In this document: piece by piece, positions 1-12,273 of the stretch | How the letters are laid out: each line of letters opens with the position of its first letter | Position numbering within the stretch: the stretch's first letter is position 1 | Source of the DNA: Ghiorsea sp. | Lineage (GTDB): Bacteria > Pseudomonadota > Zetaproteobacteria > Mariprofundales > Mariprofundaceae | Assembly: GCA_027053695.1 (NCBI GenBank) | Contig: JALUHL010000089.1 | Location: forward strand, 1-12,273 | DNA length: 12,273 nucleotides | Direction of reading: 5' to 3' | The notes under the pieces: model-generated | What the model saw: only the letters and a program-made list of their open reading frames with translations | The model's database searches: none | What the model was told of the DNA's origin: nothing | Program-made: the position numbers and the translations under genes

Positions 1-71
1 TTGGCGGCGCTAGCCTTAAAGCTGATTCATTTATGGAAATTGTTGCAGCCGCTGCGCGCGTAGCTGCATAG
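1..71 (+). CDS. tpiA: Triosephosphate isomerase, C-terminal end (partial)
   Basis: Only the last 22 codons are present; the reading frame begins at base 3 and ends at a TAG stop at 69-71. The visible tail reads GGASLKADSFMEIV followed by an alanine-rich end. This is the classic C-terminus of triosephosphate isomerase, where the GGAS loop helps bind the substrate phosphate. The enzyme interconverts dihydroxyacetone phosphate and glyceraldehyde 3-phosphate in glycolysis and gluconeogenesis, in the cytoplasm. The next gene, secG, starts 8 bases after the stop. tpiA followed by secG is a common bacterial arrangement, and it supports the call although so little sequence is visible. Confidence 0.9.
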   Translation, partial: GGASLKADSFMEIVAAAARVAA

Positions 72-79
72 GAGAAAGC

Positions 80-442
80 ATGACAACGGTATTATTAACA
101 GTTCACATTATTGTAGCGATATTGCTTATTATTGTGGTTTTGATGCAAAAAGGCCAAGAAGGTGGCATGGGCGCATCTTTTGGCGGCGGAAGCTCACAAT
201 CTTTATTTGGCTCTGGCGGCTCTGGTGACTTTCTTGTGAAAGCTACAGGCGTGCTTGCAGCGACATTTATGCTCACAAGCTTATCGCTTGCATTCTTTTC
301 GCAAAAAGAAGCAAGTTCGGTTTTAGATAGAGGTTTAAACACTGGCGTGGTTCAAGAACAACCCGCAGCGCCAGCAGGCGATGGTGCTTTTGACCCTGCA
401 AAATTGAAAGATGATGGTGCAGACATTCCCGCAGCGGAATAA
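80..442 (+). CDS. secG: Protein translocase subunit SecG
   Basis: SecG is the small accessory membrane subunit of the SecYEG translocon, which exports unfolded proteins across the inner membrane and assists the SecA motor. The 120-residue product shows the family layout. A first membrane segment lies at about residues 3-22. A conserved glycine- and serine-rich cytoplasmic loop follows (QKGQEGGMGASFGGGSSQS, then LFGSGGSGDFL). A second membrane segment lies at about 53-74. A variable, alanine- and aspartate-rich tail ends the protein. The ATG at 80 is preceded by a good ribosome binding site, GGAGAAA at 71-77, which overlaps the tpiA stop, so the two genes are probably co-transcribed. The length is ordinary for the family. 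Confidence 0.96.
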   Translation: MTTVLLTVHIIVAILLIIVVLMQKGQEGGMGASFGGGSSQSLFGSGGSGDFLVKATGVLAATFMLTSLSLAFFSQKEASSVLDRGLNTGVVQEQPAAPAGDGAFDPAKLKDDGADIPAAE

Positions 443-461
443 CCCCTTAACACAAACATAA

Positions 462-546
462 GCCGGAGTGGTGAAATTGGTAGACACGCTACCTTGAGGG
501 GGTAGTGGGGCAACCCGTGCTGGTTCGAGTCCAGTCTCCGGTACCA
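462..546 (+). tRNA. leuU: tRNA-Leu (anticodon GAG)
   Basis: A complete class II tRNA can be folded by eye. The acceptor stem is GCCGGAG (462-468) paired with CTCCGGT (536-542), followed by discriminator A543 and an encoded CCA (544-546). The anticodon stem CTACC (489-493) pairs with GGTAG (501-505) around the loop TTGAGGG, giving anticodon GAG at 496-498, which reads leucine CUU/CUC codons. A variable arm and a T arm carrying GGTTCGAGTCC follow. It sits 19 bases after the secG stop, the same order as secG-leuU in E. coli. It is therefore probably processed from a tpiA-secG-tRNA transcript. Confidence 0.97.
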
Positions 547-550
547 GCAA

Positions 551-583
551 GCAAAAGAAGCAACTTAATGTTGCTTCTTTTGC
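551..583 (+). terminator. Strong hairpin terminator after tRNA-Leu
   Basis: A perfect 14-bp inverted repeat starts five bases after the tRNA CCA end: GCAAAAGAAGCAAC at 551-564 and its exact reverse complement at 570-583, with loop TTAAT. The arm contains A4 on one side and T4 on the other, so it could end transcription from either strand. Its core is also the first unit of the tandem array that follows. Only this copy has the extended 14-bp stem, because the bases before the later copies differ. Confidence 0.8.
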
Positions 584-839
584 GCGATAGTCCAAATCAA
601 GCCGAAGCAACTTAATGTTGCTTCTTTTGCGCGATAGTCCAAATCAAACCGAAGCAACTCAATGTCACTCTTTTTTGTGCGATATTTCATCTCAAACTGA
701 AGCAACTTAATGTTGCTTCTTTTGTGCGATATTTCATCTCAAACTGAAGCAACTTAATGTTGCTTCTTTTGCGCGATAGTCCATCTCAAACTGAAGCAAC
801 TTAATGTTGCTACTTTTGCGCGATAGTCCAAATCAAGCC
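557..839. repeat. Six-copy 47-bp tandem array of terminator-like hairpins
   Basis: Units start at 557, 604, 651, 699, 746 and 793 and are 47 bp each, except the third (48 bp). Each begins with an inverted repeat, GAAGCAAC, loop TTAAT, GTTGCTTC, followed by a T-run. A linker of about 22 bases follows. Units 1, 2, 4 and 5 keep the hairpin perfectly. Unit 3 is degenerate (loop TCAAT, right arm eroded) and unit 6 has one mismatch (GTTGCTAC). Two linker types occur: one containing GATAGTCCAAATCAA (units 1, 2, 6) and one containing GATATTTCATCTCAAACT (units 3, 4). Unit 5 is a hybrid of the two. The units carry no unique spacers, so this is not a CRISPR array. The period is not a multiple of three, so it does not encode a repeated peptide. 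Confidence 0.93.
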
Positions 840-947
840 GAAACGACACAGCTATTTTTAAGGGTAATACGAATAACTTTGATAACGTTTTATGGTTGAT
901 AGGCGCTAAAATAAGCTGGATATTTTTAAGAAATAAAGGCATGAAAC

Positions 948-976
948 TTGCCGATAACAGCGCTAATGTTTATGCT
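948..976 (+). promoter_or_regulatory. Candidate sigma70-type promoter for the NPD-family gene
   Basis: TTGCCG (948-953) and TATGCT (971-976) are separated by exactly 17 bases, and each matches four of the six consensus positions. A start site near 983 would give a leader of about 80 bases before the ATG at 1065. This is a by-eye match in the only sizeable gap between the terminator array and the next gene. The rest of 840-1064 shows no convincing gene. Confidence 0.3.
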
Positions 977-1008
977 GTGCAACTATAGGTATTTGTTTAA
1001 TTTTCCCC

Positions 1009-1037
1009 TTTGCCGTCCGTAGAGATGAAAAGGCAAA
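1009..1037 (+). promoter_or_regulatory. Possible hairpin in the leader of the NPD-family gene
   Basis: TTTGCC at 1009-1014 can pair with GGCAAA at 1032-1037 around a 17-base loop, 27 bases before the start codon. It does not cover the ribosome binding site AGGTGA at 1055-1060. I recognise no known riboswitch or leader class, and a 6-bp stem could arise by chance. Confidence 0.2.
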
Positions 1038-1064
1038 CCTTAGAACATTTGACTAGGTGAACAT

Positions 1065-2471
1065 ATGTCATTCAATTTAGAAGCAGTGAACATTTCAGGG
1101 GCAGAAGTTTTACCATTGATTGAAGGTGGTAAAGGCGTTGGTGTCTCAACTGGGCTAACATCTGGCGAATGGGCGAAGGCAGGCGGCATAGGTACGGTTT
1201 CAGCCGTGAATGCGAGCCGTCACGATGAAGATGGCAATATTATTCCCGTAGAATATAAAGGGCGCAATCGTAACGAACGCTTCAAAGAATTGGTGCAGTT
1301 TGGTATTGATGGTGGTTTAACTCAGCTTAGGCAGGCGCATGATATTGCAGGCGGCAATGGTAGATTGCATGTGAATGTGTTGTGGGAAATGGGTGGTGCG
1401 CAGCAAGTTCTTCATGGTATTCTTAAGCAAGCTAAAGATATTGTGCATGGTGTAACATGTGGTGCAGGTATGCCGTTCAAGTTGGCTGAAATTGCCGCGC
1501 AATACGGTGTGCATTATTATCCTATCGTATCATCAGGGCGTGCATTTCGTGCATTGTGGCTTCGCTCTTATCGCAAAGCACCCGATTTGTTGGGTGGCGT
1601 AGTGTATGAAGACCCTTGGCTTGCAGGCGGTCATAATGGTTTGTCCAATACTGAGCGCTTTGACCAGCCCCAAGACCCTTATCCGCGCGTAAAAGAGCTG
1701 CGTGCGACCATGAATAAGTTTGGCTTAGAAAAAACACCGATTATCATGGCAGGCGGCGTTTGGTATCTTCGCGAGTGGGCAGATTGGATGGTTGATCCTG
1801 AAGTCGCTCCTGTAGTATTCCAATTTGGTACGCGCCCGTTGCTAACCCAAGAAAGCCCAGTGCGCGACTCATGGGGCAAAACATTATTAAGCTTGAAAGA
1901 AGGCGATGTAGCACTGAATCCATTCTCTCCAACGGGCTTTTATTCATCTGCGGTGCGCAATAAGTTTTTGAATGAAATGTATGAACGCTCGGATAGGCAG
2001 GTCACCTTTGCTGACCATCCAGAGCCTGCTGATGGGCATACGGAACCCTTTACTTATGGCCCGCGCAATCGAGAAGTCTTTTTAACCCCAGAAGGTAAAA
2101 AAAGCGCTGAAAAGTGGGCTGCACAAGGCTTTACTAAACCTTTGGTTACGCCAGATTCAACATTTGTTTTTGTGGATGAAGACAAGGCCGCAGAAATCCG
2201 TAAAGACCAGTTGGATTGTATGGGTTGTTTATCGCAATGTAAGTTTAGTAACTGGGCGGACAATGAAAAAGGTACAACTGGTCATAAAGCTGACCCTCGC
2301 AGTTTTTGTATTCAAAAAACATTGTTGCGTTCGGCATACGGCGATGCACCAGAAAATAATTTAATGTTTTCAGGGCATGCGGCTTATAAATTCGCCCAAG
2401 ACCCCTTCTATAAAGATGGTTTTATTCCTACCGTGAAGCAACTGGTTGATCGCATTGCTACGGGTGACTAG
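1065..2471 (+). CDS. Nitronate monooxygenase-like flavoprotein (NPD family) with C-terminal Cys cluster
   Basis: This 468-residue protein belongs to the 2-nitropropane dioxygenase / nitronate monooxygenase family, FMN-dependent TIM-barrel oxidoreductases. Supporting motifs in order are the TCGAGMP segment at 131-137, the AGGHNG motif at 187-192 containing the family's active-site-type histidine (His190), and IIMAGGVW (about residue 227), which fits the FMN phosphate-binding region. Typical family members are about 320-380 residues. Here the chain continues with four cysteines in the extension: Cys385, Cys388, Cys392 (CMGCLSQC) and Cys415. Such spacing could hold an Fe-S cluster or zinc, which is inference. 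The ATG at 1065 has AGGTGA at 1055-1060. The gene follows a terminator array and ends 30 bases before the flippase gene, so it may lead that operon or be an independent neighbour. The true substrate is unknown; nitronate oxidation is only the family label. Confidence 0.85.
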   Translation: MSFNLEAVNISGAEVLPLIEGGKGVGVSTGLTSGEWAKAGGIGTVSAVNASRHDEDGNIIPVEYKGRNRNERFKELVQFGIDGGLTQLRQAHDIAGGNGRLHVNVLWEMGGAQQVLHGILKQAKDIVHGVTCGAGMPFKLAEIAAQYGVHYYPIVSSGRAFRALWLRSYRKAPDLLGGVVYEDPWLAGGHNGLSNTERFDQPQDPYPRVKELRATMNKFGLEKTPIIMAGGVWYLREWADWMVDPEVAPVVFQFGTRPLLTQESPVRDSWGKTLLSLKEGDVALNPFSPTGFYSSAVRNKFLNEMYERSDRQVTFADHPEPADGHTEPFTYGPRNREVFLTPEGKKSAEKWAAQGFTKPLVTPDSTFVFVDEDKAAEIRKDQLDCMGCLSQCKFSNWADNEKGTTGHKADPRSFCIQKTLLRSAYGDAPENNLMFSGHAAYKFAQDPFYKDGFIPTVKQLVDRIATGD

Positions 2472-2501
2472 TTACTACCCTCGTTTGTTCTAGGTTCTAC
2501 T

Positions 2502-3929
2502 TTGAGCTTATCTAACCGTGTGTTTCGAGGTGGTGTTTGGTTAGGCATGACCTTTGCCTCATCACGCCTGCTTGGTTTATTGCGGCTTACGCTACTTACA
2601 CGTTTATTGCTTCCAGAGGATTTTGGGCTCATTACTATTGTGACATTGGTGGTGAGTAGCATGTGGGTGCTGACAGATGCTGGCGTTGCTGCTGCGGTTA
2701 TTCAAAAGAAAAATCCTAATGATGCCTTTTTGCATACAGCATGGCATATCAGTTGGCTAAGAGGCATTGTTTTAGCGATTATTTGTTGGCTTATCGCACC
2801 TGCATTGGCATTGTTTTTTGAGCATGCAGAACTAGAAAGGTTGTTGCATTGGGCAGCGCTTATTCCTTTGGTTCAAGGCTTTGAAAGCTTGGGTATGACA
2901 TTGCTGAAAAAAGAACTTCAATTTAAACAAAAAGCGTATGTAGATTTAACCAGAGAAATTGTACAAACCGTTGTTGCAGTGTTGTTGGTGATGTATTGGC
3001 AAGCCAACGCATTATCTGTGGTGTTGGGTATTATTATGGGGGTTATTGCTGCAACGCTTCTTTCTTATGTCATGCATCATTATAGACCTGTATTACGTTA
3101 TGATAAAACAGCCATGCAGGAGATTTGGTCTTATGGCTCACATGTTATGGGTGCAGGTATTTTGGTGTTTGCGATGACCAATCTAGATGATGTGGTGGTT
3201 GGTAAAATGCTAGGGGTGGCACAGCTGGGTTTTTACGGCGTGGCATTTACACTAGCAGCATTGCTGACAAATCAGTTGGTTCAAGTGTTTAACACGGTGA
3301 TGTTCCCCGCATTATCCCAAATTCAAGAAGATGGTACACGGATTAAGCATGTTTTGTATTTAAGTGTGCGTATGATGGTCGGTGTGCTAACCCCTGTTAT
3401 TGCGTTTGTTGCCTTGTTTCCTGAGGCGCTGGTAAGCATGATTTTAGGAGATAAATGGCTGCCTATTGTTAGTGTGCTATTGGTGCTTCTGTGCATGGGC
3501 TGGGTTCGTGGTATTGCGACCGTCTTTGGCCCTATTCTCATGGCTCGTAAGAAGACTAAAGCACTACATAAAATGAAATGGTTCGAGTTTATTTTATTTT
3601 CGCTCACGATTATTCCTGCGGTATCTTGGTTTGGAGTTGTTGGTGCAGCAATCGTATTGCTTATGGTGTATGGTTTGAGCTTATTCTTGCATATTCAGGC
3701 TGTTCATAGGGATATAATACTGGATGGTAAGCATCTTTTCTTACAAGTTCTTCACGGTGTTTTGCCTTCCGCTATTGCTTTTACTTTTGCTATGTTATGG
3801 CATAACTTCTATCCTGAGGTCGGGTTGTGGCTCATTGGTATGATGTTTACATGCATATGGGCATTGATTTTATGGGTAAGAGAAAGAAGCTTTATTTACA
3901 AGGTGATAGAGATGGTCAGGCAAAAATGA
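2502..3929 (+). CDS. Polysaccharide flippase, Wzx/WzxC-like
   Basis: The 475-residue product is highly hydrophobic, with roughly 12-14 membrane segments along its whole length. It begins with the pattern usual for oligosaccharide flippases of the MOP superfamily (FRGGVWLGMTFASSRLLG, then RLLLPEDFGLITI). Such proteins move undecaprenyl-linked repeat units across the inner membrane. The start is a TTG at 2502, chosen because it gives the expected N-terminus and has AGG at 2492-2494 at suitable spacing; the next in-frame ATG would cut into the first helix. The stop overlaps the next start by four bases (ATGA). The neighbouring glycosyltransferases support a role in capsule, exopolysaccharide or O-antigen export. 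Substrate specificity cannot be read from sequence. Confidence 0.88.
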   Translation: MSLSNRVFRGGVWLGMTFASSRLLGLLRLTLLTRLLLPEDFGLITIVTLVVSSMWVLTDAGVAAAVIQKKNPNDAFLHTAWHISWLRGIVLAIICWLIAPALALFFEHAELERLLHWAALIPLVQGFESLGMTLLKKELQFKQKAYVDLTREIVQTVVAVLLVMYWQANALSVVLGIIMGVIAATLLSYVMHHYRPVLRYDKTAMQEIWSYGSHVMGAGILVFAMTNLDDVVVGKMLGVAQLGFYGVAFTLAALLTNQLVQVFNTVMFPALSQIQEDGTRIKHVLYLSVRMMVGVLTPVIAFVALFPEALVSMILGDKWLPIVSVLLVLLCMGWVRGIATVFGPILMARKKTKALHKMKWFEFILFSLTIIPAVSWFGVVGAAIVLLMVYGLSLFLHIQAVHRDIILDGKHLFLQVLHGVLPSAIAFTFAMLWHNFYPEVGLWLIGMMFTCIWALILWVRERSFIYKVIEMVRQK

Positions 3930-4669
3930 AATCTGAACAAGACATTGAACCTTTAGGTTTTGCATCACCGAATCGTTATGTCCAAGGCGCATGGACTACT
4001 GCGCTTTTAAAGCGTATGGCATATTGGGTAAAAAAGAAGCATCCAGAACATGAGAAGTGTTTAGATGTTGGTTGTGGTGAAGGAGCACTGTTGGATATGT
4101 TGGGTTTTTCAGGCGTTGGCGTTGATCTTAACCCAGCTCGCCTAGCCTTAGCCAAAGAGAAAAAGCTTCAGGTTATGCTCGGTGATGGCACGGCTCTTCC
4201 TTTCGAGGATGAACTATTTGCAACGGCGATTAGCATGGAAGTCTTAGAACATGTCCCTGAAATGCAGATGATGATGCAAGATGTGCATCGTGTGCTCAAA
4301 AAAGGTGGTGTTTGGATTATTTCTGTTCCCAGTGTGACGCTGCGTTCAAAGTATGAAATGTGGCGAGAGAAGAAAGCATATTACTGCGACCCCGATGAAC
4401 ATTTTAGAGAATTCTCCCCCGTTCTTCCGCAAGGCTTTGAGCATAGGTTTATGTTAACATCGGATTTTAAAGACATGTTTGTTGAGGCTGGATTTAAGGT
4501 GCTGCACCAAGATGGTGTGCGCTATGTTTTTCCGCAGTGGTTCACTCGCCTTCCTGGGTTGCAAAGCTTTTTGGAGTCGCCTTGTGCCGATAGATTTTGG
4601 TCTAAATTACCATGGTTTAGTAGTTATCCTTATTGGACAATTCTTGTATTGCAGAGAATGCCAGCATGA
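3926..4669 (+). CDS. Class I SAM-dependent methyltransferase
   Basis: The 247-residue protein has the Rossmann-fold methyltransferase signature. Motif I is LDVGCGEG at 46-53, the acidic residue ending strand 2 is Asp67 in VGVDLNP, the motif II region is GDGTALPF at 86-93, and MEVLEHV follows at 104-110, as in the Methyltransf_11 family. An upstream in-frame ATG at 3827 would overlap the flippase by about 100 bases. The ATG at 3926 is preferred because it forms an ATGA overlap with the flippase stop and has CAGG at 3917-3920. Within this cluster it probably methylates a sugar or a lipid-linked glycan, but a small-molecule substrate cannot be excluded. It ends in another ATGA overlap with the next gene, so translation is likely coupled. 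Confidence 0.85.
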   Translation: MKSEQDIEPLGFASPNRYVQGAWTTALLKRMAYWVKKKHPEHEKCLDVGCGEGALLDMLGFSGVGVDLNPARLALAKEKKLQVMLGDGTALPFEDELFATAISMEVLEHVPEMQMMMQDVHRVLKKGGVWIISVPSVTLRSKYEMWREKKAYYCDPDEHFREFSPVLPQGFEHRFMLTSDFKDMFVEAGFKVLHQDGVRYVFPQWFTRLPGLQSFLESPCADRFWSKLPWFSSYPYWTILVLQRMPA

Positions 4670-5754
4670 ACCTTCTTGTTGTCTCTAAAGAAGCATGGGG
4701 AGATACGCGGTGGGCAAGAAAACAGTGGCTACCCTATTTTTTAGCGCAACAAGAGGTTATCAACCAAGTTACTTATGTCGATAGTCCTTCTGCTTGGTGG
4801 CGTGGACAAGCAGCCCATCAAGACGAAACAGTAAGTAACATTAATATTGTACAAAAGAACCTTGTGTTTCCCTTGGAGAAACTACCTTTTGTGCGTGTTA
4901 TGAACCGCAAAATTATCGCTAGAAAGCTCCTTTCTATATATACAACAGATTCACCATGGATAACCATGTACTACCATCCTTATGATGTTGATATGATGGA
5001 TACTCTGGCTGAGAAATCACATATAGTATTTGATTGGACGGAAGACTGGGCAGACTTTCATCATGATGAAAGCATGCTGGAGCTACAAGTCAGATGTGTG
5101 AAAGAAGCAGATGTTGTTTTTACAGTTACGCAAACACTTTATCAACGAGCAGTTGATTTGAGGTGTTCGGATGAATCGGTATTTTATGTGCCCAATGCCA
5201 CAGTGTTTAGACCCAATGAATCCATCATAGATGAGCCACAGGCATTGCGCTCAGTTTCGAGGCCTAGACTTGGGTTTATAGGTCATATTGGCCCATGGTT
5301 TGATATAAGTTTGGTAGAATCAATGGCGAGCAGCCAACCTTCTTGGCAATGGGTGTTGGTTGGGGGAGCAAGTGATCAGGCAAAAGCTAGGTTATCAGAG
5401 TATGATAATATCCATCTCTTAGGTGTATTTTCTCCCAAAGCATTGCCAGCATTGATGCAGCATTGTGATGTGCTTGTTGCACCATATAAACAAGGTATTC
5501 AAGGTGATGCAACTAAGCTTTATGATTATTTAGCGATGAAGAAACCAATTGTTTCTACTGCTTGTGAGACATCAACGAAGCTTCAGCCGTGGGTGCGAGA
5601 ATGCCATAATACTGAGGATTGGTTAGGTTCAATTTCAGAGGCTCTTGAAATGAAAACGCTCCCTTTAGCCAGTGACCAAGATATTTTGCAACATCATTGG
5701 CAAGCACGTTCGTCATACGTAGTGGAATTATTTCAAAGTATGTGTCATGTCTAG
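4666..5754 (+). CDS. GT-B glycosyltransferase, TuaH-like
   Basis: The 362-residue product looks like a two-domain GT-B glycosyltransferase of the type annotated TuaH-like. The N-terminal half ends with a segment rich in acidic and aromatic residues (FDWTEDWADFHHDES). The C-terminal half opens with RLGFIGHIGPWFD and carries a donor-binding-like segment around residue 284 (KLYDYLAMKKPIVST). It would add one sugar from a nucleotide-sugar donor to a growing glycan at the inner face of the membrane; no signal peptide or membrane segment is evident. An in-frame ATG at 4633 exists, but the ATG at 4666 overlaps the previous stop as ATGA and gives the normal start MNLLVVSKE. The gene overlaps the next by eight bases. 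Donor and acceptor are unknown. Confidence 0.8.
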   Translation: MNLLVVSKEAWGDTRWARKQWLPYFLAQQEVINQVTYVDSPSAWWRGQAAHQDETVSNINIVQKNLVFPLEKLPFVRVMNRKIIARKLLSIYTTDSPWITMYYHPYDVDMMDTLAEKSHIVFDWTEDWADFHHDESMLELQVRCVKEADVVFTVTQTLYQRAVDLRCSDESVFYVPNATVFRPNESIIDEPQALRSVSRPRLGFIGHIGPWFDISLVESMASSQPSWQWVLVGGASDQAKARLSEYDNIHLLGVFSPKALPALMQHCDVLVAPYKQGIQGDATKLYDYLAMKKPIVSTACETSTKLQPWVRECHNTEDWLGSISEALEMKTLPLASDQDILQHHWQARSSYVVELFQSMCHV

Positions 5755-6703
5755 TTTTGCTGTCTCTGTTTTAGTGATTTCCCGAGATAGACGGGCTTTA
5801 TTGCAGCGTGTTTTATCGGATTTAAGAGCGCAGCAGTATGATGGTGAATTTGAAATTGTGTTGGTGGAAGAAACCGATGCTCCAGATGCGCCTGAAGGTG
5901 TGGTGTATGTGCCGCACCCGATGAAAAATTTAGGCATTGCTTATGCGAGAAACTTATCTGTACAACATGCAAAATATGATGTGTTGGCATTTATTGATGA
6001 TGATTGCCGCGTGGAAAAGAATTGGTTGAGCAACTTGGTCGCGCCCCTTCATGATGAACAGGTGTTGGGTGTTCAAGGTGGTGTCACTGTGCCAGAAGGT
6101 ACGAATGCGATAGGTTGGGCTGAAAGCTTATTGGGTTTTCCTGGCGGTGGTATCACAAGGGTTAAGCAAGCCCAAGGGCAAACGCAGTCTACGCAAGAAA
6201 TTTCAACCTTAAATGCATGTTATCGTAAGCATATTGTGGATAAAGTTGGCGGCTTTTCTGCGCATGCACGCTTTGGCGGCGAAGATTATTTGTTGGCAAA
6301 GAAGGTGGCTGAGCATGGAAAGCTCTTATTCGTTCCCCAAGCCATGATTAGGCATGAGGCAAGAGGGAACTTGGCGGATATTTGGCATTGGTTTATACGT
6401 CGAGGTCGAGCTGAAATGGATTTATGGCGAAGTGGTTTTGCTCCCGAACATTATGGGCAGTGGATGCTCAAAGCTTCGCCAACTTTGAAGTTTTATCCAT
6501 TTGTTTTATTGAGTTGTTGGAGTGTGCTTCCCTTGCTTCTCTTTTTAGCGATGATGGCGGGCATGAATTGGTGGCGTTTTCGTTGGATATTATCGGATAG
6601 TGACATACCCAATACTGCGTGGGCGGTTTTGCCGGTGGTGCGATTAATCATGAGCTTGGCAACGGATGTGGGTAGAATAAAAGCATGGCTGAGCAAAGCA
6701 TGA
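5747..6703 (+). CDS. GT2-family glycosyltransferase with C-terminal membrane segment
   Basis: This is a 318-residue GT-A (family 2) glycosyltransferase. The N-terminus VSVLVISRDR starts the nucleotide-binding fold. IDDD, with aspartates 84-86, is the metal- and donor-binding motif. GGED with Glu179-Asp180 fits the catalytic base region. RGRAEM in the following helix is a plausible acceptor-loop motif. A hydrophobic stretch at about 248-271, with a possible second one near the C-terminus, suggests it is anchored to the inner membrane and acts on a lipid-linked acceptor. The start at 5747 overlaps the preceding gene by eight bases and lacks a strong Shine-Dalgarno sequence, so it probably depends on translational coupling. 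Its role is likely one step of repeat-unit assembly. The sugar specificity is unknown. Confidence 0.87.
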   Translation: MSSFAVSVLVISRDRRALLQRVLSDLRAQQYDGEFEIVLVEETDAPDAPEGVVYVPHPMKNLGIAYARNLSVQHAKYDVLAFIDDDCRVEKNWLSNLVAPLHDEQVLGVQGGVTVPEGTNAIGWAESLLGFPGGGITRVKQAQGQTQSTQEISTLNACYRKHIVDKVGGFSAHARFGGEDYLLAKKVAEHGKLLFVPQAMIRHEARGNLADIWHWFIRRGRAEMDLWRSGFAPEHYGQWMLKASPTLKFYPFVLLSCWSVLPLLLFLAMMAGMNWWRFRWILSDSDIPNTAWAVLPVVRLIMSLATDVGRIKAWLSKA

Positions 6704-8805
6704 TGCGTATTGCCTATGTTTCTCAATTTCCAAATATGGTGGGTGGTGGCGAGCATTCTTTATTGGATTTGATGTGCCATGTGCCTTCATCAGTAGAGCC
6801 TGTATTCATCACACCCAGTGAAGGTGAGTTGACAGAACAAGCCAAAGCTTGCGGTATCAAACATGTGAGCTTGCCTATGCTGAAACTGGTGCAGTTTAAG
6901 CCTTCCATATTACAAGCTTGGGTAAAAGCGCTGCAGGTGATAAAACCTGATGTGATTCATGCCAATAATTCGCGTGCTGCATTTTATGCAGGTTTGGCTG
7001 GGCGCAAGTTGCATATCCCTGTGGTTTTTCATTGCCGTATTGCGCAACCCGATGCTTTGATGGATGGTATATTGAAGCGTTTGGTGGGCACGGTGATTTG
7101 CAATAGCCAGTCCGTGGCAGCACGTTTTCAGAGTTATGCAAAACCTGTGCATGTGATTTACAACGGTTTGAATGTAACCTCATTACCGAATCTAGCGAAT
7201 CCTTTGCCTAGCGCAGATAAATATATGCTTTTTGTTGGGCGTATCACCCCAGAAAAGCAGCTTGAACATGCTTTGAAGGTCTTTGCAGATTTAGCCGCGC
7301 AAGATGAGGGACTTCACTTTGTTGTGCTTGGTGAGGCAGGCCCTGATGACAACGGTTATATGCAAGGCATCAAAGATGAATGCAAGCAGCATGCTTGGTG
7401 TGATAGGGTGCATTTTTTAGGGTATCACGATGATGTAACGCCTTGGTATGCGCATGCGCAATATCTTATTTTAACCTCTAAGCATGAGGGGTTTGGACGG
7501 GTCTTGGTGGAAGCGATGTCGCAAGCTTGCCCTGTGGTGACTTATGCTGTGGGTGGTGTACCTGAAGTGTTTGAAGATGGTGAGCAAGGTTTTCTGATTG
7601 CGCCCAATGATGTGCAGGCGATGAGCCAAGCATGCAAGCGTTTGCTGGAAGATAAGTCGCTTAACACAAGCATGGGGCAGGCTGGCGTAAAACATGCGCA
7701 AAACTTCTCCATTGAAACGCATGTGAGCCAAGTGGTGTCGGTATATCAAGGCTTGGTGAGTGAGGCATCTGCAGTGAAAGTGATGGTTGACGGGCGAGAA
7801 TTTGTATTTGGTCGCCGTACTGGTATTGGCCGTTTTTTAGAAGGGCTTTTGCTGGCACTTGCAAATCAACATCCTGATTGGTTGCTGCAAGTGATATTGG
7901 ATGAGCCGAATGCCTTGCCTATTTCCCTGCAAGATAAGGTAGTGGCTCAGCAGGCACCAAAACACTTGGAATGGCATTGGCCAGCTTTGACAAAAGGATT
8001 TGATTTATTTCTAAGCCCTTATCCCAAGCGTCCACTGCGCATGCTACCTTGCCCAAGCATTCACACCATTCATGATGTGTTTTATTTGACCCACCCTGCA
8101 TATCAAGGGAATAGTTTGCGTAGAATGGCAGGGTTATGGCGTTTAAAACAGGCGGTATCGTCTGCCAGTTTAACGTGGTTTGATTCTAAGGTTTCTCAAG
8201 ATGAAACAGAAAAGTTGGTGGGCGATATTACGCATGATACTGCTATTCGGTTCCCTGCGATTGAAGCAAGCTTTAAGCCCGATAGGCGGGTGAAGAAAAA
8301 AGATTTCTTTTTGTTTGTAGGCAATGGCTTGCCGCATAAAAATGTGCAAATTCTGCTTGGCGCAATGAAGGGTACAGACATCCATTTGAAATGCGTGGGC
8401 ATTCGCCAAGATGTGGCAGATAAACTTTTGCATATGTTTCAGCCTGAAGAAGGGCAAGTGGAGTTCTTACAAGATGTGGATGATGTGGCATTGCTGAAAT
8501 TATACAGGCAAAGCAAAGCTTTATTGCAGCCCTCCACAGCTGAGGGTTATGGCTATCCACCTCTTGAAGCCTTTGCATGCGGCACATCCGCCATTGTTTC
8601 TGATATTCCCGTGCTTAGAGAAACCACAGGTGGCTTTGCAAGCTATTGTCCGCCGCATGACGCACAAGCTTGGCGCAATGTTTTGACCACATTTGAAGCA
8701 GACACGAAAATGGTAGAGCAAGGTTTAACATGGGCAAAAGCGCATCAAGGCAAACGCGGTTGGGCAAAGCATATTCAAGATATTGAGCAACTGGTGAACC
8801 GTTAA
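6700..8805 (+). CDS. Two-module GT4-GT4 glycosyltransferase fusion
   Basis: The 701-residue product is about twice the usual length and contains two GT-B glycosyltransferases in tandem. Module 1 (about 1-355) has the N-terminal glycine-rich loop GGGEHS (15-20), FVGRITPEK at 178-186 and an EX7E motif with Glu263 and Glu271. Module 2 (about 360-701) restarts with a typical GT4 N-terminus, VDGREF then RTGIGRF, followed by FVGNGLPHKN at 539-548 and a second EX7E with Glu615 and Glu623. Both modules keep their catalytic-type motifs, so both may be active and add two successive sugars. The start at 6700 makes an ATGA overlap with the preceding stop; in-frame ATGs at 6685 and 6703 are alternatives. 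The stop overlaps the asnB-like start by one base. Confidence 0.86.
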   Translation: MMRIAYVSQFPNMVGGGEHSLLDLMCHVPSSVEPVFITPSEGELTEQAKACGIKHVSLPMLKLVQFKPSILQAWVKALQVIKPDVIHANNSRAAFYAGLAGRKLHIPVVFHCRIAQPDALMDGILKRLVGTVICNSQSVAARFQSYAKPVHVIYNGLNVTSLPNLANPLPSADKYMLFVGRITPEKQLEHALKVFADLAAQDEGLHFVVLGEAGPDDNGYMQGIKDECKQHAWCDRVHFLGYHDDVTPWYAHAQYLILTSKHEGFGRVLVEAMSQACPVVTYAVGGVPEVFEDGEQGFLIAPNDVQAMSQACKRLLEDKSLNTSMGQAGVKHAQNFSIETHVSQVVSVYQGLVSEASAVKVMVDGREFVFGRRTGIGRFLEGLLLALANQHPDWLLQVILDEPNALPISLQDKVVAQQAPKHLEWHWPALTKGFDLFLSPYPKRPLRMLPCPSIHTIHDVFYLTHPAYQGNSLRRMAGLWRLKQAVSSASLTWFDSKVSQDETEKLVGDITHDTAIRFPAIEASFKPDRRVKKKDFFLFVGNGLPHKNVQILLGAMKGTDIHLKCVGIRQDVADKLLHMFQPEEGQVEFLQDVDDVALLKLYRQSKALLQPSTAEGYGYPPLEAFACGTSAIVSDIPVLRETTGGFASYCPPHDAQAWRNVLTTFEADTKMVEQGLTWAKAHQGKRGWAKHIQDIEQLVNR

Positions 8806-10682
8806 TGTGTGGTTTTGCAAGCATATTGGGTAAAACAGATGCCGTAGAACTCAAAGCCATGGCTTCTGCTGTAGCTGCGCGTGGCCCTGATGGGAAGGGT
8901 GAGTTTATGTCATCCGAGTTTTCAGCCATTCATCATAGGCTTGCGATTATTGGCCCCGACGCGCGCGGTAATCAACCCATGCAGGTGGATGATGTGGTGG
9001 TGGTGTTTAACGGCTGCATTTATAATTATAAAGATCTGCGAGAAAAGCTTGAAGCAGATGGCGTGACCTTTCAATCGGATTCGGATACCGAAGTGATTCC
9101 GCATTTGTATCGCCGCTTTGGTTTGGGTGTGTTCAACTTGCTTGAAGGTATGTTTTCCATTGTGTTGTGGGACAAACGCGAACAGATATGTTTAGTGGCT
9201 AGAGATGTGTTTGGTGAAAAGCCCTTGTTTGTCTGCGAGCAAGACGGGCGTGTGGGTTTTGCATCATCGCAGAATGCGTTTGAAAAAGGTAAGTGGTCGC
9301 TCACCCCAAATTTAAGCAGTGTATATCACATTTTAACGCGTATGCGTGCTGAAGCACCCCAAACTATGTATGAAGAAGTATCGCAACTGCCCGCAGGTTG
9401 TTATGCCATTGCCAAAGCGGGGCAACCTTTGCAAATTCGCCGTTATTTCTTCCTACCCGAGCCAGCCCAACCGCTTGATTTAACAGCAGATGAAATCAAA
9501 CCTGAAGTGAAATCCATGCTGGTCAAATCTATCACCAGTAAAACGGTTTCCGACAAGCCATTAGGCGTGTTTTTATCGGGCGGTGTGGATTCATCGCTGA
9601 TTGCAGGTGTGCTCAAACAAGACGCTGGGCAGGATGTGCATAGTTTTTGTGTGCGCTTTATGGATGCGCCCCAAGATTATGACGAGAGCGTGTATGCGGG
9701 GCAAGTGGCTAACCATTTAGGCACACAACATCAAACCTTGGAAGTGAATGCTACAGCACATCAAGCCTTGGATGATTTAGCAACAGCCTTTGATATGCCA
9801 GTTACCAACTCCGCAGCATTGCCCACCTATTTGATTAGCCGCGAAGCGAAAAAGCATGTGGATGTGGCATTGTCGGGTGTGGGTGGTGATGAATTGTTTG
9901 GTGGATACCCGCGCTATTTGGGCTTGAAATGGCATGAGAAGTTGCAAGGGCTTCCTGCAAGGAGCGTAGCGCTTAAAGTGTTGGAAAGTTTGGGTGATAG
10001 CGCATCCAGTCGCAACTTGAGAGGTCGGATGCGCCGCTTTTTACAAGGTTTGGATGATGCGCCAGTAGATGCTTATCGCCGTTGGACTTCGACTACGGAT
10101 GCTGCGTGGTCGGATATATTTCATGGCATGCAGCTTTCGCAACCTGAACATGCTTGGAAAAATGCATCGCAAATATCAGGTGGTCTCAAAGGTTTGTTGG
10201 ATAACTACGGCGTGGTGAATGGCGCAATGATTGATGATGTCATTCATTATGTGGGCGATGATTTGTTGGCAGTGGGTGACCGCATGAGTATGGCCAATGC
10301 CTTGGAATTACGCGCACCATTATTGGATGCGGGGCTATTTTCATTCATGGCGACCTTGGATGATAGTTGGAAGGTGCAAGGTTTACCGTGGCAAGAAAAG
10401 CTGAAAGTATTGCTCAAAGAAATCACTTGCGATTATCTGCCCAAAGCAATGGTTTATCGCCCCAAACAAGGCTTTATGGCACCGATCAAACATTGGATGC
10501 GAGCAGACTTTAAGGATGATATTCAAGCGATGATAGCCGATAAACCGCTTGGTGGTTTGGTGCGTGAAAGCTTTGTGCAGGAGCAGTGGGATAGGCATCA
10601 AAAAGGCGAAGATAGGTCGGATATATTGTGGGGCTTGTTGCTGATGAACAGATGGATGCAGCAACATGGGTGGCAGTTTTGA
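8805..10682 (+). CDS. asnB: AsnB-type glutamine-dependent amidotransferase
   Basis: The 625-residue protein has both halves of glutamine-hydrolysing asparagine synthetase. The N-terminal class II glutaminase has nucleophile Cys2 (MCGF), RGPDG at 26-30, Arg45, Asn69 and Asp94. The C-terminal synthetase domain has the ATP-binding PP-loop SGGVDSS at 258-264. One glutaminase position differs: the usual NGEIYN reads NGCIYN, with Cys71 in place of glutamate. The enzyme would activate a carboxylate with ATP and transfer ammonia from glutamine. In a polysaccharide operon the acceptor may be a uronic acid on the glycan rather than aspartate; that is inference from context. The start codon overlaps the previous stop as TAATG, and no independent promoter is visible. 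Free asparagine synthesis remains possible. Confidence 0.88.
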   Translation: MCGFASILGKTDAVELKAMASAVAARGPDGKGEFMSSEFSAIHHRLAIIGPDARGNQPMQVDDVVVVFNGCIYNYKDLREKLEADGVTFQSDSDTEVIPHLYRRFGLGVFNLLEGMFSIVLWDKREQICLVARDVFGEKPLFVCEQDGRVGFASSQNAFEKGKWSLTPNLSSVYHILTRMRAEAPQTMYEEVSQLPAGCYAIAKAGQPLQIRRYFFLPEPAQPLDLTADEIKPEVKSMLVKSITSKTVSDKPLGVFLSGGVDSSLIAGVLKQDAGQDVHSFCVRFMDAPQDYDESVYAGQVANHLGTQHQTLEVNATAHQALDDLATAFDMPVTNSAALPTYLISREAKKHVDVALSGVGGDELFGGYPRYLGLKWHEKLQGLPARSVALKVLESLGDSASSRNLRGRMRRFLQGLDDAPVDAYRRWTSTTDAAWSDIFHGMQLSQPEHAWKNASQISGGLKGLLDNYGVVNGAMIDDVIHYVGDDLLAVGDRMSMANALELRAPLLDAGLFSFMATLDDSWKVQGLPWQEKLKVLLKEITCDYLPKAMVYRPKQGFMAPIKHWMRADFKDDIQAMIADKPLGGLVRESFVQEQWDRHQKGEDRSDILWGLLLMNRWMQQHGWQF

Positions 10683-10717
10683 TGTTGGCAGATGGTGTAA
10701 GAACCTCTAAGGTTTAG
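10682..10717 (+). other. 11-codon overlapping mini-ORF at the operon/R-M junction
   Basis: An ATG at 10682 overlaps the amidotransferase stop as TGATG, the same kind of junction seen inside the operon, but the frame reads only MLADGVRTSKV before TAG at 10715. It may be the remnant of a further operon gene whose body was lost when the restriction-modification locus was inserted, or it may be chance. It lies directly before the methyltransferase start. Confidence 0.25.
10702..10714 (+). promoter_or_regulatory. Short hairpin covering the Shine-Dalgarno of the D12 methyltransferase
   Basis: AACCT (10702-10706) can pair with AGGTT (10710-10714) around a three-base loop. The right arm contains most of the TAAGG ribosome binding site (10708-10712) that serves the ATG at 10721. 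A 5-bp stem is weak, so any effect on translation is speculative. Confidence 0.2.
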
Positions 10718-10720
10718 CTT

Positions 10721-11614
10721 ATGAGCAAAGCAGTTAAACCTTTTTTGAAATGGGCAGGTGGTAAAACACAACTTCTTAGTGATATTGAACAACGCTTCCC
10801 TTACGCTAAAGAAGAAAAGTTTACCTTTATCGAGCCTTTTGTCGGTAGTGGTGCGGTTCTGTTTTGGGTACTGAATCACTTCCCTAATGTGCAGCAATGC
10901 ATCATTAACGATGTCAATACAGACCTTATCAATACTTATCATACTATTCGCAATGATGTGGATGCGTTGATTGAACAACTCAATATTTGGCAATCTGAAT
11001 ATCATGCCCTTGCTTTGGATATAGAGCGAAAAAAAACTTACTATTATGAAAAACGTGCTGATTTTAATACCAAAGAACAACCTCAAATCCAGCAAGCTGC
11101 ATTATTTATTTTCTTAAACAGAACATGTTTTAATGGTTTATACCGCGTCAATCGCAATGGTGGTTTTAATGTGCCTATTGGTAGTTATAAAACGCCTAAA
11201 ATTTGTGATGCACCTAATCTAAGAAAGGTGAGCGAAGCTTTGCAGAACGTAACCATACTTCAAGGTGATTTTGAGCAAACACTTAAGTATGCGCAAGGCA
11301 ACACCATGTTTTATCTTGATCCACCATACAAACCCTTAAGCGCATCTTCTAGCTTTACGGCTTATGCCAAAGATGAGTTTAATGATGATGAGCAACGAAG
11401 GCTTAAAAACTTTTGTGACACTCTAACTGAACAAGATTATCCATGGATTTTAAGTAATTCAGATGTAAGCCAGTTGGAAGACAATAATTTTTTTGATGAG
11501 TTATATTCAGATTATAAAATTAACCGAATTCTCGCAAAACGGGCGATCAACTCTGTCTCAGCAAAACGCGGAAAGATCCATGAGTTACTTATTTCTAATA
11601 GGGCGGCCGCATGA
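10721..11614 (+). CDS. DNA adenine N6-methyltransferase, D12 class (Dam/DpnM-like)
   Basis: This 297-residue protein is an alpha-class, D12-type adenine methyltransferase. It shows PFLKWAGGK (7-15), the SAM-binding motif FIEPFVGSG (36-44), the segment LNRTCFNGLYRVN with GGFNVP typical of Dam, DpnM and EcoRV methylases, and the catalytic DPPY at 200-203. Family members methylate adenine in GATC or GATATC sites. GATC is the likelier target here, but specificity is not proven by sequence. The ATG at 10721 has TAAGG eight bases upstream. Its stop overlaps the next start as ATGA. That partner looks like a nuclease, so this is a restriction-linked methylase rather than a solitary housekeeping Dam. 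The coding sequence is visibly AT-richer than the polysaccharide genes, which suggests separate acquisition. Confidence 0.93.
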   Translation: MSKAVKPFLKWAGGKTQLLSDIEQRFPYAKEEKFTFIEPFVGSGAVLFWVLNHFPNVQQCIINDVNTDLINTYHTIRNDVDALIEQLNIWQSEYHALALDIERKKTYYYEKRADFNTKEQPQIQQAALFIFLNRTCFNGLYRVNRNGGFNVPIGSYKTPKICDAPNLRKVSEALQNVTILQGDFEQTLKYAQGNTMFYLDPPYKPLSASSSFTAYAKDEFNDDEQRRLKNFCDTLTEQDYPWILSNSDVSQLEDNNFFDELYSDYKINRILAKRAINSVSAKRGKIHELLISNRAAA

Positions 11615-12174
11615 TTAAAGATGGAATAGGTGGAGCAAACACTCAAACAGGCATTTATTTTGAGGGGAAAGTGGATTTGGTTACTTACCTGCATAAAAAG
11701 GTTTTAGGCTATGAATGCGTAGCAAACAAAAGAATAAAAGGGAAAACAATGGGTTTCTCTATTTATTACCAAGAGAAACTCGTGGCACAATCATTCAAAA
11801 AATATGAGTTATATCGGTTTTTAGAAGAACAAGGCATCGATTGGAGGAAAAGTTTATCTAAACGTTTGCTGCCCGATGATGCGATTTATGTTATTCGAGA
11901 AAACACAATGCACATTATTGAAATTAAATATCAAGAAGTTGATGGTTCTGTAGATGAGAAGTTGCAAACATGTGAATTTAAATTAAGGCAATATAAGAAA
12001 CTTTTTGCTCTGCTCAACTATGAAGTAACGTTTTCTTATGTGCTTAGTCGCTGGTTTAAGCAACCAAAATATAAAGACACATTAGACTATATTATTGATA
12101 AAGGTTGTAAGTATTACTTTGAGTATTTGCCTTTGCATAAACTCGGCTTACCTGTTCCACCTAGTAGTGATTAA
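11611..12174 (+). CDS. Putative type II restriction endonuclease, PD-(D/E)xK fold
   Basis: The 187-residue protein has a readable PD-(D/E)xK nuclease core. PDD lies at 88-90, then 13 residues, then EIK with Glu104 and Lys106 in a hydrophobic strand (HIIEIKYQ). A following helix contains FKLRQYKK. An upstream helix containing TGIYFEGK with Glu18 resembles the first core helix of such nucleases. It lies between, and overlaps, two DNA methyltransferase genes, which strongly suggests it is the cognate restriction enzyme. I do not recognise it as a homologue of DpnII, MboI or Sau3AI endonucleases, so the cut site is inferred only from the neighbouring methylases. It starts in an ATGA overlap. A different nuclease role, such as nicking or repair, is possible but less likely. 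Confidence 0.72.
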   Translation: MIKDGIGGANTQTGIYFEGKVDLVTYLHKKVLGYECVANKRIKGKTMGFSIYYQEKLVAQSFKKYELYRFLEEQGIDWRKSLSKRLLPDDAIYVIRENTMHIIEIKYQEVDGSVDEKLQTCEFKLRQYKKLFALLNYEVTFSYVLSRWFKQPKYKDTLDYIIDKGCKYYFEYLPLHKLGLPVPPSSD

Positions 12175-12273
12175 AAGTTATTTCAAATCTCAAGATAAAG
12201 CTTTTACTTTATTAAAGGAAGATAGCCTAGATGTATTAGCAAAATTTGAGTTTGAATTTGATATGATCTTTGC
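12167..12273 (+). CDS. Second DNA methyltransferase, N-terminus (partial, GTG start)
   Basis: A frame opens at GTG 12167, overlaps the nuclease stop by eight bases and stays open to the window end, giving 35 codons. The product begins IKSYFKSQDKAFTLLKEDS and then reads LDVLAKFEFEFDMIF. The segment 'LLKEDSLDVL ... FDMIFA' matches the start of beta-class amino-methyltransferases such as DpnA and HinfI methylase, where it runs directly into the catalytic DPPY motif. Here the window stops within the alanine codon expected just before DPPY. In DpnII-like systems a second methylase of this kind modifies GATC, including in single-stranded DNA. Alternatively it could methylate the other strand of an asymmetric site. 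Confidence 0.72.
   Translation, partial: MIKSYFKSQDKAFTLLKEDSLDVLAKFEFEFDMIF

Follow-up and report, generated by a model that had tools for sequence, protein, structure and literature searches.

The closest described relatives of the locus studied here are the three-gene restriction-modification (R-M) systems DpnII, MboI, and LlaDCHI, which are specific for GATC and combine a nuclease (R) with a Dam-like (M1) and a DpnA-like (M2) methylase. In MboI, the genes are arranged in the order M1-R-M2. Nuclease exchange at a GATC locus has precedents: in pneumococcus, the different genes of the DpnI and DpnII cassettes alternate at one GATC R-M locus, and at hpyIIIR/hrgA of Helicobacter pylori, hrgA takes the place of the nuclease gene beside a GATC methylase. 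Here, we analyzed a stretch of 12,273 nucleotides from Ghiorsea sp. (Mariprofundaceae, Zetaproteobacteria; assembly GCA_027053695.1, contig JALUHL010000089.1), which is related to iron-oxidizing bacteria of the sea. The stretch is referred to as the window, which is the entire contig C89 of its genome, G000. Judged from its genes, it ends in a GATC-type R-M locus of the order M1-R-M2, and it is poor in GATC. Avoidance as such is already known, since Rusinov et al. 2015 (PMC4687349) describes hosts avoiding type II sites, the persistence of avoidance after loss of a system, and GATC as a recurrent case.

The locus shares a Dam-like M1 with the three-gene systems and, judging from the 35 residues of its M2 in the window, probably also a DpnA-like M2, and four sister genomes hold a DpnII-family R in the same slot. 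The R of the window differs, being a 187-amino-acid PD-(D/E)XK protein without a match to the DpnII family (PF04556), and the order of the genes differs from that on the Lactococcus plasmid pSRQ700 (M1-M2-R). Unlike at the pneumococcal and H. pylori loci, at least three nuclease families alternate here between two kept methylases. In the dam/drg locus of Neisseria, the methylase is in pieces and R is shortened, whereas R and M1 of the window are open frames. In passages on that locus in PMC4269198 and PMC6789123, dam and drg are described together with a truncated methylase or an enzyme like DPNIIB, and R does not appear as such; the DPNIIB-like enzyme follows drg in three strains (PMC4269198). 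The Sau3AI system finds its likeness in the sister genome G009, with a Sau3AI-like R and a C5 methylase, whereas G000 is without a MutH-domain match.

GATC is depleted in the window and throughout the sampled genome

The original prediction had counted ten GATC sites in the window where about 45 would be expected. An exact search returned the same ten positions (1794, 2448, 4124, 5374, 9033, 10484, 11318, 11545, 11575, and 12265), and a base composition model likewise gave 45. Dinucleotide shuffles gave an expectation of 28 (standard deviation, 5.2; 200 of 200 shuffles had at least ten sites) and a second-order Markov model one of 39 (observed/expected ratio [O/E], 0.26). Depending on the model, the deficit is thus 2.8- to 4.5-fold. 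The contrast with CATG was also found again, with 24 CATG and 2 GATC within positions 1 to 3900. CCGG is even rarer than GATC in the window (3 seen, 16.5 expected; O/E, 0.18), GGCC follows at 0.40, and the remaining 13 palindromic tetramers lie at 0.62 to 1.03. In the eight coding sequences upstream of the R-M locus, shuffling of synonymous codons predicts 24.9 GATC sites, of which 6 are seen (O/E, 0.24); the R-M genes, the last 1,553 bases of the window, hold 4 of the 10 sites (binomial P, 0.03).

The assembly of G000 comprises 1,331,150 bases in 247 contigs and is 70.7% complete. We sampled 40 further contigs (241,561 bases, of which 225,778 are non-N), about one-sixth of the assembly. GATC was the lowest of all 256 tetramers in 39 other contigs (128 seen, 853 expected; O/E, 0.15), followed by CCGG (0.28) and GGCC (0.37), and the 40-contig sample gave the same ratio (133 seen, 897 expected; O/E, 0.15). 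Karlin-type ratios in G000 were 0.29 for GATC, 0.41 for CCGG, 0.58 for GGCC, 0.91 for CATG, and 1.05 for AGCT; the avoidance cutoff given in PMC4687349 is 0.78. In the sampled sixth of the assembly, GATC therefore stands far below the other palindromes, as had been proposed, with the exception of CCGG and GGCC, and it does so in coding and noncoding DNA alike, which is the hallmark of restriction-site avoidance.

The codons of 171 called open reading frames (ORFs) of G000 (171,984 bases) were analyzed with 30 shuffles of synonymous codons. GATC was seen 100 times against 537 expected (O/E, 0.19; z, -30) and was low in every codon phase (0.22, 0.38, and 0.07). The predicted preference for the aspartate codon GAC before C was present in the window (6 GAT to 12 GAC before C versus 175 to 29 otherwise) and in the genome sample, where the GAT share was 0.25 before C (314 aspartates) and 0.81 to 0.95 before A, G, or T. 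Among the 14 codon pairs tabulated, the drop before C was greatest for GAT. TGT (0.20 before C, 0.44 to 0.59 elsewhere), CGT (0.23 and 0.35 to 0.53), and ACT (0.29 and 0.17 to 0.55) were also rarer before C, indicating that part of the context bias is general, and CAT, TAT, TTT, and AAT fell little (0.71, 0.66, 0.64, and 0.51). The isoleucine codon ATC made up 0.019 of ATC plus ATT after G (n = 630) versus 0.32 to 0.40 after other bases, while the valine and phenylalanine controls held up after G (0.225 and 0.155). Uncalled DNA of G000 (69,812 bases, N included) was equally poor in GATC (31 seen, 195 expected; 0.16). The process thus operates at the level of the DNA rather than of a single codon pair. 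The shuffles also gave low ratios for CCGG (0.23), GGCC (0.43), ACGT (0.49), and TCGA (0.55).

The window ends in a GATC-type R-M locus

The presence of a Dam/DpnM-like methylase with a nuclease in the window was upheld by homology (Table 1). M1 falls into the Dam subfamily TIGR00571 (313.9 bits; cutoff, 114.85), and its best matches among solved structures are the DpnII methylase (2dpm, 5e-46) and Dam (2g1p, 4.6e-41). The stub of M2 is 74% identical to the M2 of sister genome G007 over residues 1 to 35, and M2 is full length in seven sister genomes. The G007 protein is an N6_N4_Mtase protein with CcrM and then DpnA as the nearest solved structures, and it shares 58% identity with the second methylase of LlaDCHI, the GATC-specific three-gene system carried by pSRQ700. 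From these homologues, M1 and M2 are predicted to methylate the adenine of GATC.

TABLE 1 Features of the window
Feature	Position	Strand	Remarks
GATC-depleted host DNA	1..10720		six sites: 1794, 2448, 4124, 5374, 9033, 10484
Asparagine synthase-like gene	8805..10682	+	left neighbor of R-M locus; also beside the locus in G014, G007, G011
M1, Dam/DpnM-like adenine methyltransferase, 297 aa	10721..11614	+	PF02086, 6.7e-70
GATC site in catalytic DPPY codons of M1 (GAT CCA CCA TAC)	11318..11321		present in 7/7 full-length genus orthologues compared
R, PD-(D/E)XK-type nuclease, 187 aa, putatively exchanged part	11611..12174	+	overlaps M1 by 4 bases
M2, DpnA-like N6-adenine methyltransferase, first 35 residues	12167..12271	+	GTG start, overlaps R end, cut by contig end

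As far as alignments can tell, R has the conserved residues of the PD-(D/E)XK nuclease superfamily: E18, P88-D89, and E104-x-K106 show no variation in either of two alignments, one with 40 and one with 11 sequences. It scored 21.0 bits against PDDEXK_11 (PF20472), under the curated cutoff of 23.7, and many of its 120 listed homologues bear PDDEXK_11 as a precomputed label. R had no match in NCBIfam, PADLOC, or PHROGs, and a sequence search of solved structures gave no convincing relative (best E values, 0.11 and 0.022). In the 70.7% complete G000, no match was found to PF04556, to the MutH-like domain of Sau3AI-type nucleases (PF02976), or to the DpnI domain (PF06044). By homology, a cognate R-M system is present in G000 and its close kin, and the methylase partners and the place of R suggest that R cuts unmethylated GATC. 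Contig C82 of G000 carries another island (L136:9227-12397), in which a C5 methylase gene is accompanied by ORFs of 438 and 193 amino acids, neither of which matches Pfam.

Unrelated nucleases occupy the slot between similar methylases

M1 was found at 75% identity or more in 8 of 16 genomes of the genus (partial in G004). Between M1 and M2, the R slot holds a DpnII-family gene (PF04556) in four of the 16 (G004, G005, G008, and G015), a DUF6996/6997 gene in three (G007, G011, and G014), and the R of the window in G000 only. PADLOC labels the DUF6996/6997 protein of G007 a type II restriction endonuclease. All four DpnII loci carry one or two extra genes: G005 has a GmrSD-like gene, G008 a ParB-like and an unnamed gene, and G004 and G015 have unnamed genes. 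The M1 of G000 is 88 to 89% identical to those of G014, G005, and G004 (G004 over 110 residues), and the four proteins are 88 to 91% alike among themselves, while the R proteins of G000, G014, and G005/G004 are of three kinds without a BLASTP match to each other.

These layouts suggest that R was swapped between kept methylases. In G000 and G014, the same spacer separates M1 from the asparagine synthase gene, and identity at fourfold sites between the two genomes is 0.63 in M1 and 0.58 in the asparagine synthase gene. M1 in these two genomes therefore looks inherited in place while R was exchanged. Against simple inheritance everywhere, identity at fourfold sites between G000/G014 and G007/G011 is 0.32 to 0.38 in M1 versus 0.50 to 0.53 in the asparagine synthase gene (0.52 to 0.53 for G000 itself), and between G014 and G007/G011 it is 0.35 to 0.43 in M2 versus 0.46 to 0.52 in its neighbors. 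Since M1 and M2 are less alike there than the genes around them, some cassettes may be later arrivals from elsewhere. The left neighbor is common to G000, G007, G011, and G014, the right one to G004, G014, G007, and G011, and in G005, G008, and G015, the locus adjoins an ABC-type ATPase gene (named by eye).

Neither M1 nor M2 was found in G009, which has instead the Sau3AI-like R (2.9e-50 to 4pxg) with the C5 methylase and, at contig ends, two DpnI-type pieces. G009 thus combines the two types (L140:11104-14002; L158; L159). Cutting of the DpnI type needs adenine-methylated GATC. One of the DpnI-type pieces adjoins an alaS-like gene (named by eye), and in G006 (L138:10625-13435), an NgoPII-type endonuclease gene, accompanied by a C5 methylase frame without a domain start, lies near an alaS-like gene (also named by eye); NgoPII is specific for GGCC. 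At two loci of the GATC type whose R genes differ (L066:7337-7876 and L134:6252-6806), M2 is immediately preceded by unnamed proteins of 179 and 184 amino acids that are related by eye.

The methylase genes are largely spared

With shuffled synonymous codons as the expectation, GATC was seen 17 times against 23.9 in eight M1 genes, one of them partial (O/E, 0.71), 27 times against 32.2 in seven M2 genes (0.84), and 9 times against 16.7 in eight R genes (0.54), while three partly overlapping sets of neighboring genes gave 0.24, 0.22, and 0.19. For CCGG (1 seen in total, 13.3 expected) and GGCC (2 and 20.7), these genes do show the avoidance found in the genome at large. Across seven full-length M1 and seven M2 genes, GATC occurs at 15 distinct positions. 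The codons of DPPY in M1 and M2 and of DPFAG, the S-adenosylmethionine-binding motif, in M2 carry it in 7 of 7 genes each, 21 of 21 in total, despite varying third bases of the proline codons and main-lineage fourfold sites that are only 0.24 to 0.57 identical. In homologues outside the genus, the DPPY aspartate codon is sometimes GAC, showing that the protein does not need GATC there.

Aspartate codons before C are 31 GAT to 6 GAC in M1 plus M2 (164 to 42 before other bases) and 15 to 36 in the neighboring genes (Fisher P, 4e-7); with one genome per lineage, M1 plus M2 still gave 13 to 4 (Fisher P, 0.001), these P values being a guide only because the orthologues are related. Similarly, isoleucine ATC after G accounts for 11 of 61 codons in M1 plus M2 versus 3 of 140 in the neighbors. 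The R genes are unlike the methylases at aspartate codons, with 3 GAT to 9 GAC before C.

We considered that methylase genes might be exempt from the loss of GATC, the recognition site of the system they belong to, an idea that we put forward tentatively and hold to be rather unlikely. Our estimate, low from the start, was lowered a little further because some cassettes are possibly later arrivals and because R is not exempt at its aspartate codons. The C82 island of G000, with its unrelated C5 methylase, is also little depleted (4 seen, 5.1 expected), which leaves recent acquisition as a rival to exemption. In G009, the Sau3AI-like genes hold 2 GATC sites against 3.7 expected and 2 against 2.8, and their flanks 7 against 15.0. 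At a gonococcal locus of the GGCC type, the R piece and C5-like methylase gave 4 seen against 5.8 expected and 19 other ORFs 49 against 166.7 (summed by hand); for the GGCC-type genes of G006, the expectation for their own site is very low. All three cases are small and carry little weight for or against an exemption.

GATC avoidance extends over the genus

In addition to the G000 sample, we took stretches totaling 4 to 60 kb per genome from 14 sister genomes, G002 being unsampled; many of these samples are small and their ratios rough. GATC was avoided in 15 of 15 (O/E, 0.09 to 0.40), as was CCGG (0.07 to 0.47), and GGCC was low in 13 of 15 (0.09 to 0.37), the exceptions being G009 (0.76) and G013 (0.69, from a 5.4-kb sample). 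Outside the genus, GATC ratios of 0.46 to 1.08 were obtained in 17 genomes, 14 of them of the same family. The lowest three were G083 (0.46), G018 (0.48), and G186 (0.49); G083 and G186 carry a homologue of the R of the window, and both were sampled around it. A different site stood out in G022 (L074), where ACGT was seen 0 times against 32 expected over 20 kb, perhaps another avoided restriction site.

Origin of the avoidance

We propose, with a probability of roughly 0.78, that GATC has long been selected against in the genus by GATC-cutting R-M systems, the set of which has changed over time. Restriction enzymes cutting unmethylated GATC would have circulated there for a long time and would have imposed a strong and lasting selection against the site. 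In the version now present in the window, adenine methylation of GATC would fall to M1 and M2, and the small PD-(D/E)XK nuclease R would cut unmethylated GATC in incoming DNA. Long exposure to GATC-cutting enzymes had been suggested from the start, and both the genome ratio and the codon context speak for it, with restriction as the probable selective agent. Several observations weigh against this explanation. A search for five GATC nuclease families found none in seven of 16 genus genomes (G001, G002, G003, G006, G010, G012, and G013), yet the six of these that were sampled avoid GATC equally (0.09 to 0.38); a D12 methylase that is only distantly similar (31%) occurs in G010, and a fragment in G002; several of the assemblies are incomplete. 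The cassette of the window need therefore not be the cause. Likewise, CCGG and GGCC are avoided in G007, G008, and G011, where the search for a C5 methylase found none, and avoidance and present enzymes thus lack a one-to-one match. Finally, GATC avoidance is moderate or slight in four R-family hosts that do not belong to the genus (0.46 to 0.77, from short stretches around R), and an R-bearing plasmid (L109) does not avoid it (1.01).

Avoidance that is equal with and without the cassette would also be expected of a vestige, in which the genus ancestor lost its GATC sites under an older system, e.g., of the DpnII or Sau3AI type, with little contribution from today's cassette. Traces of lost R-M systems are on record (PMC4687349), depletion is far weaker in M1, R, and M2 than in their neighbors, and the fourfold sites suggest that some cassettes came later. 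We nevertheless regard a vestige as possible but not probable, given that M1 of G000 and G014 appears inherited in place, with its shared spacer and its similarity to the neighbor at fourfold sites, and that all three genes share the avoidance of CCGG and GGCC with the genome. It is unlikely that R cuts another site or is no restriction enzyme but a chance neighbor in the operon: its lack of database matches and of a convincing solved relative, with PDDEXK_11 below cutoff, would allow this, but its PD-(D/E)XK residues are conserved, it is paired with M1/M2-type genes in several phyla and phages, and it replaces DpnII between similar methylases. Very unlikely, in our view, is a mutational or codon-pair bias that removes GATC independently of restriction. 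Such a bias would fit the low CCGG and GGCC and the rarer TGT, CGT, and ACT before C, but GAT falls most, isoleucine ATC is nearly gone only after G, and uncalled DNA is depleted to the same degree. Moreover, no single product one step from GATC dominates (GACC/GGTC, 0.98; GATT/AATC, 1.11; GATA, 1.82; GATG, 1.61), GATA and GATG being high in relatives outside the genus too (1.41 and 1.23), and a search for MutH in G000 and 15 sister genomes gave a single match, the Sau3AI-like gene of G009.

The R family is widespread and often paired with GATC-type methylases

The R family comprises 1,828 homologues at an E value of 1e-3 or lower among 1,892 candidates. R was found in none of 40 relatives and in none of the INPHARED phage records. 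When 398 genomes were drawn from the phylum, 3 of the 397 others had it, as did 4 of the 216 genomes in the order to which G083 belongs. We scanned 25 R-family loci with M1 and M2 profiles, for which L023, L109, L133, L134, and L135 among these loci had also served as input. A strong match (E value below 1e-30) was present in 17, a weak one only in 3, and none in 5; with repeats removed (L167 lies inside L135, L173 equals L183, and L174 to L176 are one phage lineage), the figures for 21 loci were 15, 3, and 3. R is thus paired with M1- or M2-type genes in loci of several phyla and phages. A record of Neisseria gonorrhoeae (L107:3197-5553) has a DpnI-like gene (identified by eye and from the published drg), then pieces of an M2-type methylase, then a shortened R homologue, which is 49% identical to the R of the window over residues 1 to 154. 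This dam/drg locus has the appearance of a decayed, once exchangeable GATC cassette.

Three IMG/VR records (38,492, 38,492, and 15,776 bases) that belong to one phage lineage (95 to 100% identity in the compared pieces) carry R without an M1/M2 match in the fetched parts and hold no GATC at all (122, 104, and 52 expected); no D12 methylase was found in the three whole records. We had taken this as possible proof of the specificity of R, but control loci undid it. A search with a different protein of the phage, made regardless of R, gave 65 loci of 10 kb or longer (the phage itself and near copies included), and 57 of them had zero GATC. The lack of GATC hence belongs to the phage clade. The clade (L196-L275, found via a gp46-like protein of L188, named by eye) is T4-like by eye and nearly free of GATC, with 135 sites against 3,641 expected in 1,175,525 bases for the 65 loci together. 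Phage K is a parallel case of a GATC-poor phage.

Other features of the window

A tRNA-Leu (gag) lies at positions 462 to 546 of the window, after secG. The NPD-family protein has, among its 120 closest listed homologues, named organisms that are Mariprofundaceae, Mariprofundus, or Zetaproteobacteria throughout.

Implications

A literature search with few subscription papers returned no paper naming PF20472, PDDEXK_11, DUF6996, or DUF6997 and none on R-M in Zetaproteobacteria that was on topic by its title. Among the titles and the starts of abstracts listed, none dealt with an R that is exchanged while two methylases are kept, or with methylase genes that are spared. Within that search, we found no precedent for an exchangeable nuclease slot with the R family or for spared methylase genes. 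PMC4687349 measured whole genomes; in the present genus, methylase genes are seen to escape most of the depletion, and different nucleases lie between methylases that are kept.

Restriction-site avoidance is a known phenomenon, and its origin may lie in leaky self-methylation, in system loss, or in DNA exchange. The genus offers a direct comparative test, as five nuclease families (three recognized by homology, two proposed from their place) come and go while the depletion is nearly uniform and the methylase genes are largely spared. R itself represents a widespread family without a curated name above threshold, of which a shortened copy lies in the gonococcal dam/drg locus. If the exemption of the methylase genes were true and general, selection would hit DNA that is separated from its methylase, through strain exchange or through loss or swap of a system; leaky self-methylation would hit the methylase genes equally and would then not be the selective agent. 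The kept methylase pair with its exchangeable nucleases would, in that case, be the long-lived unit.

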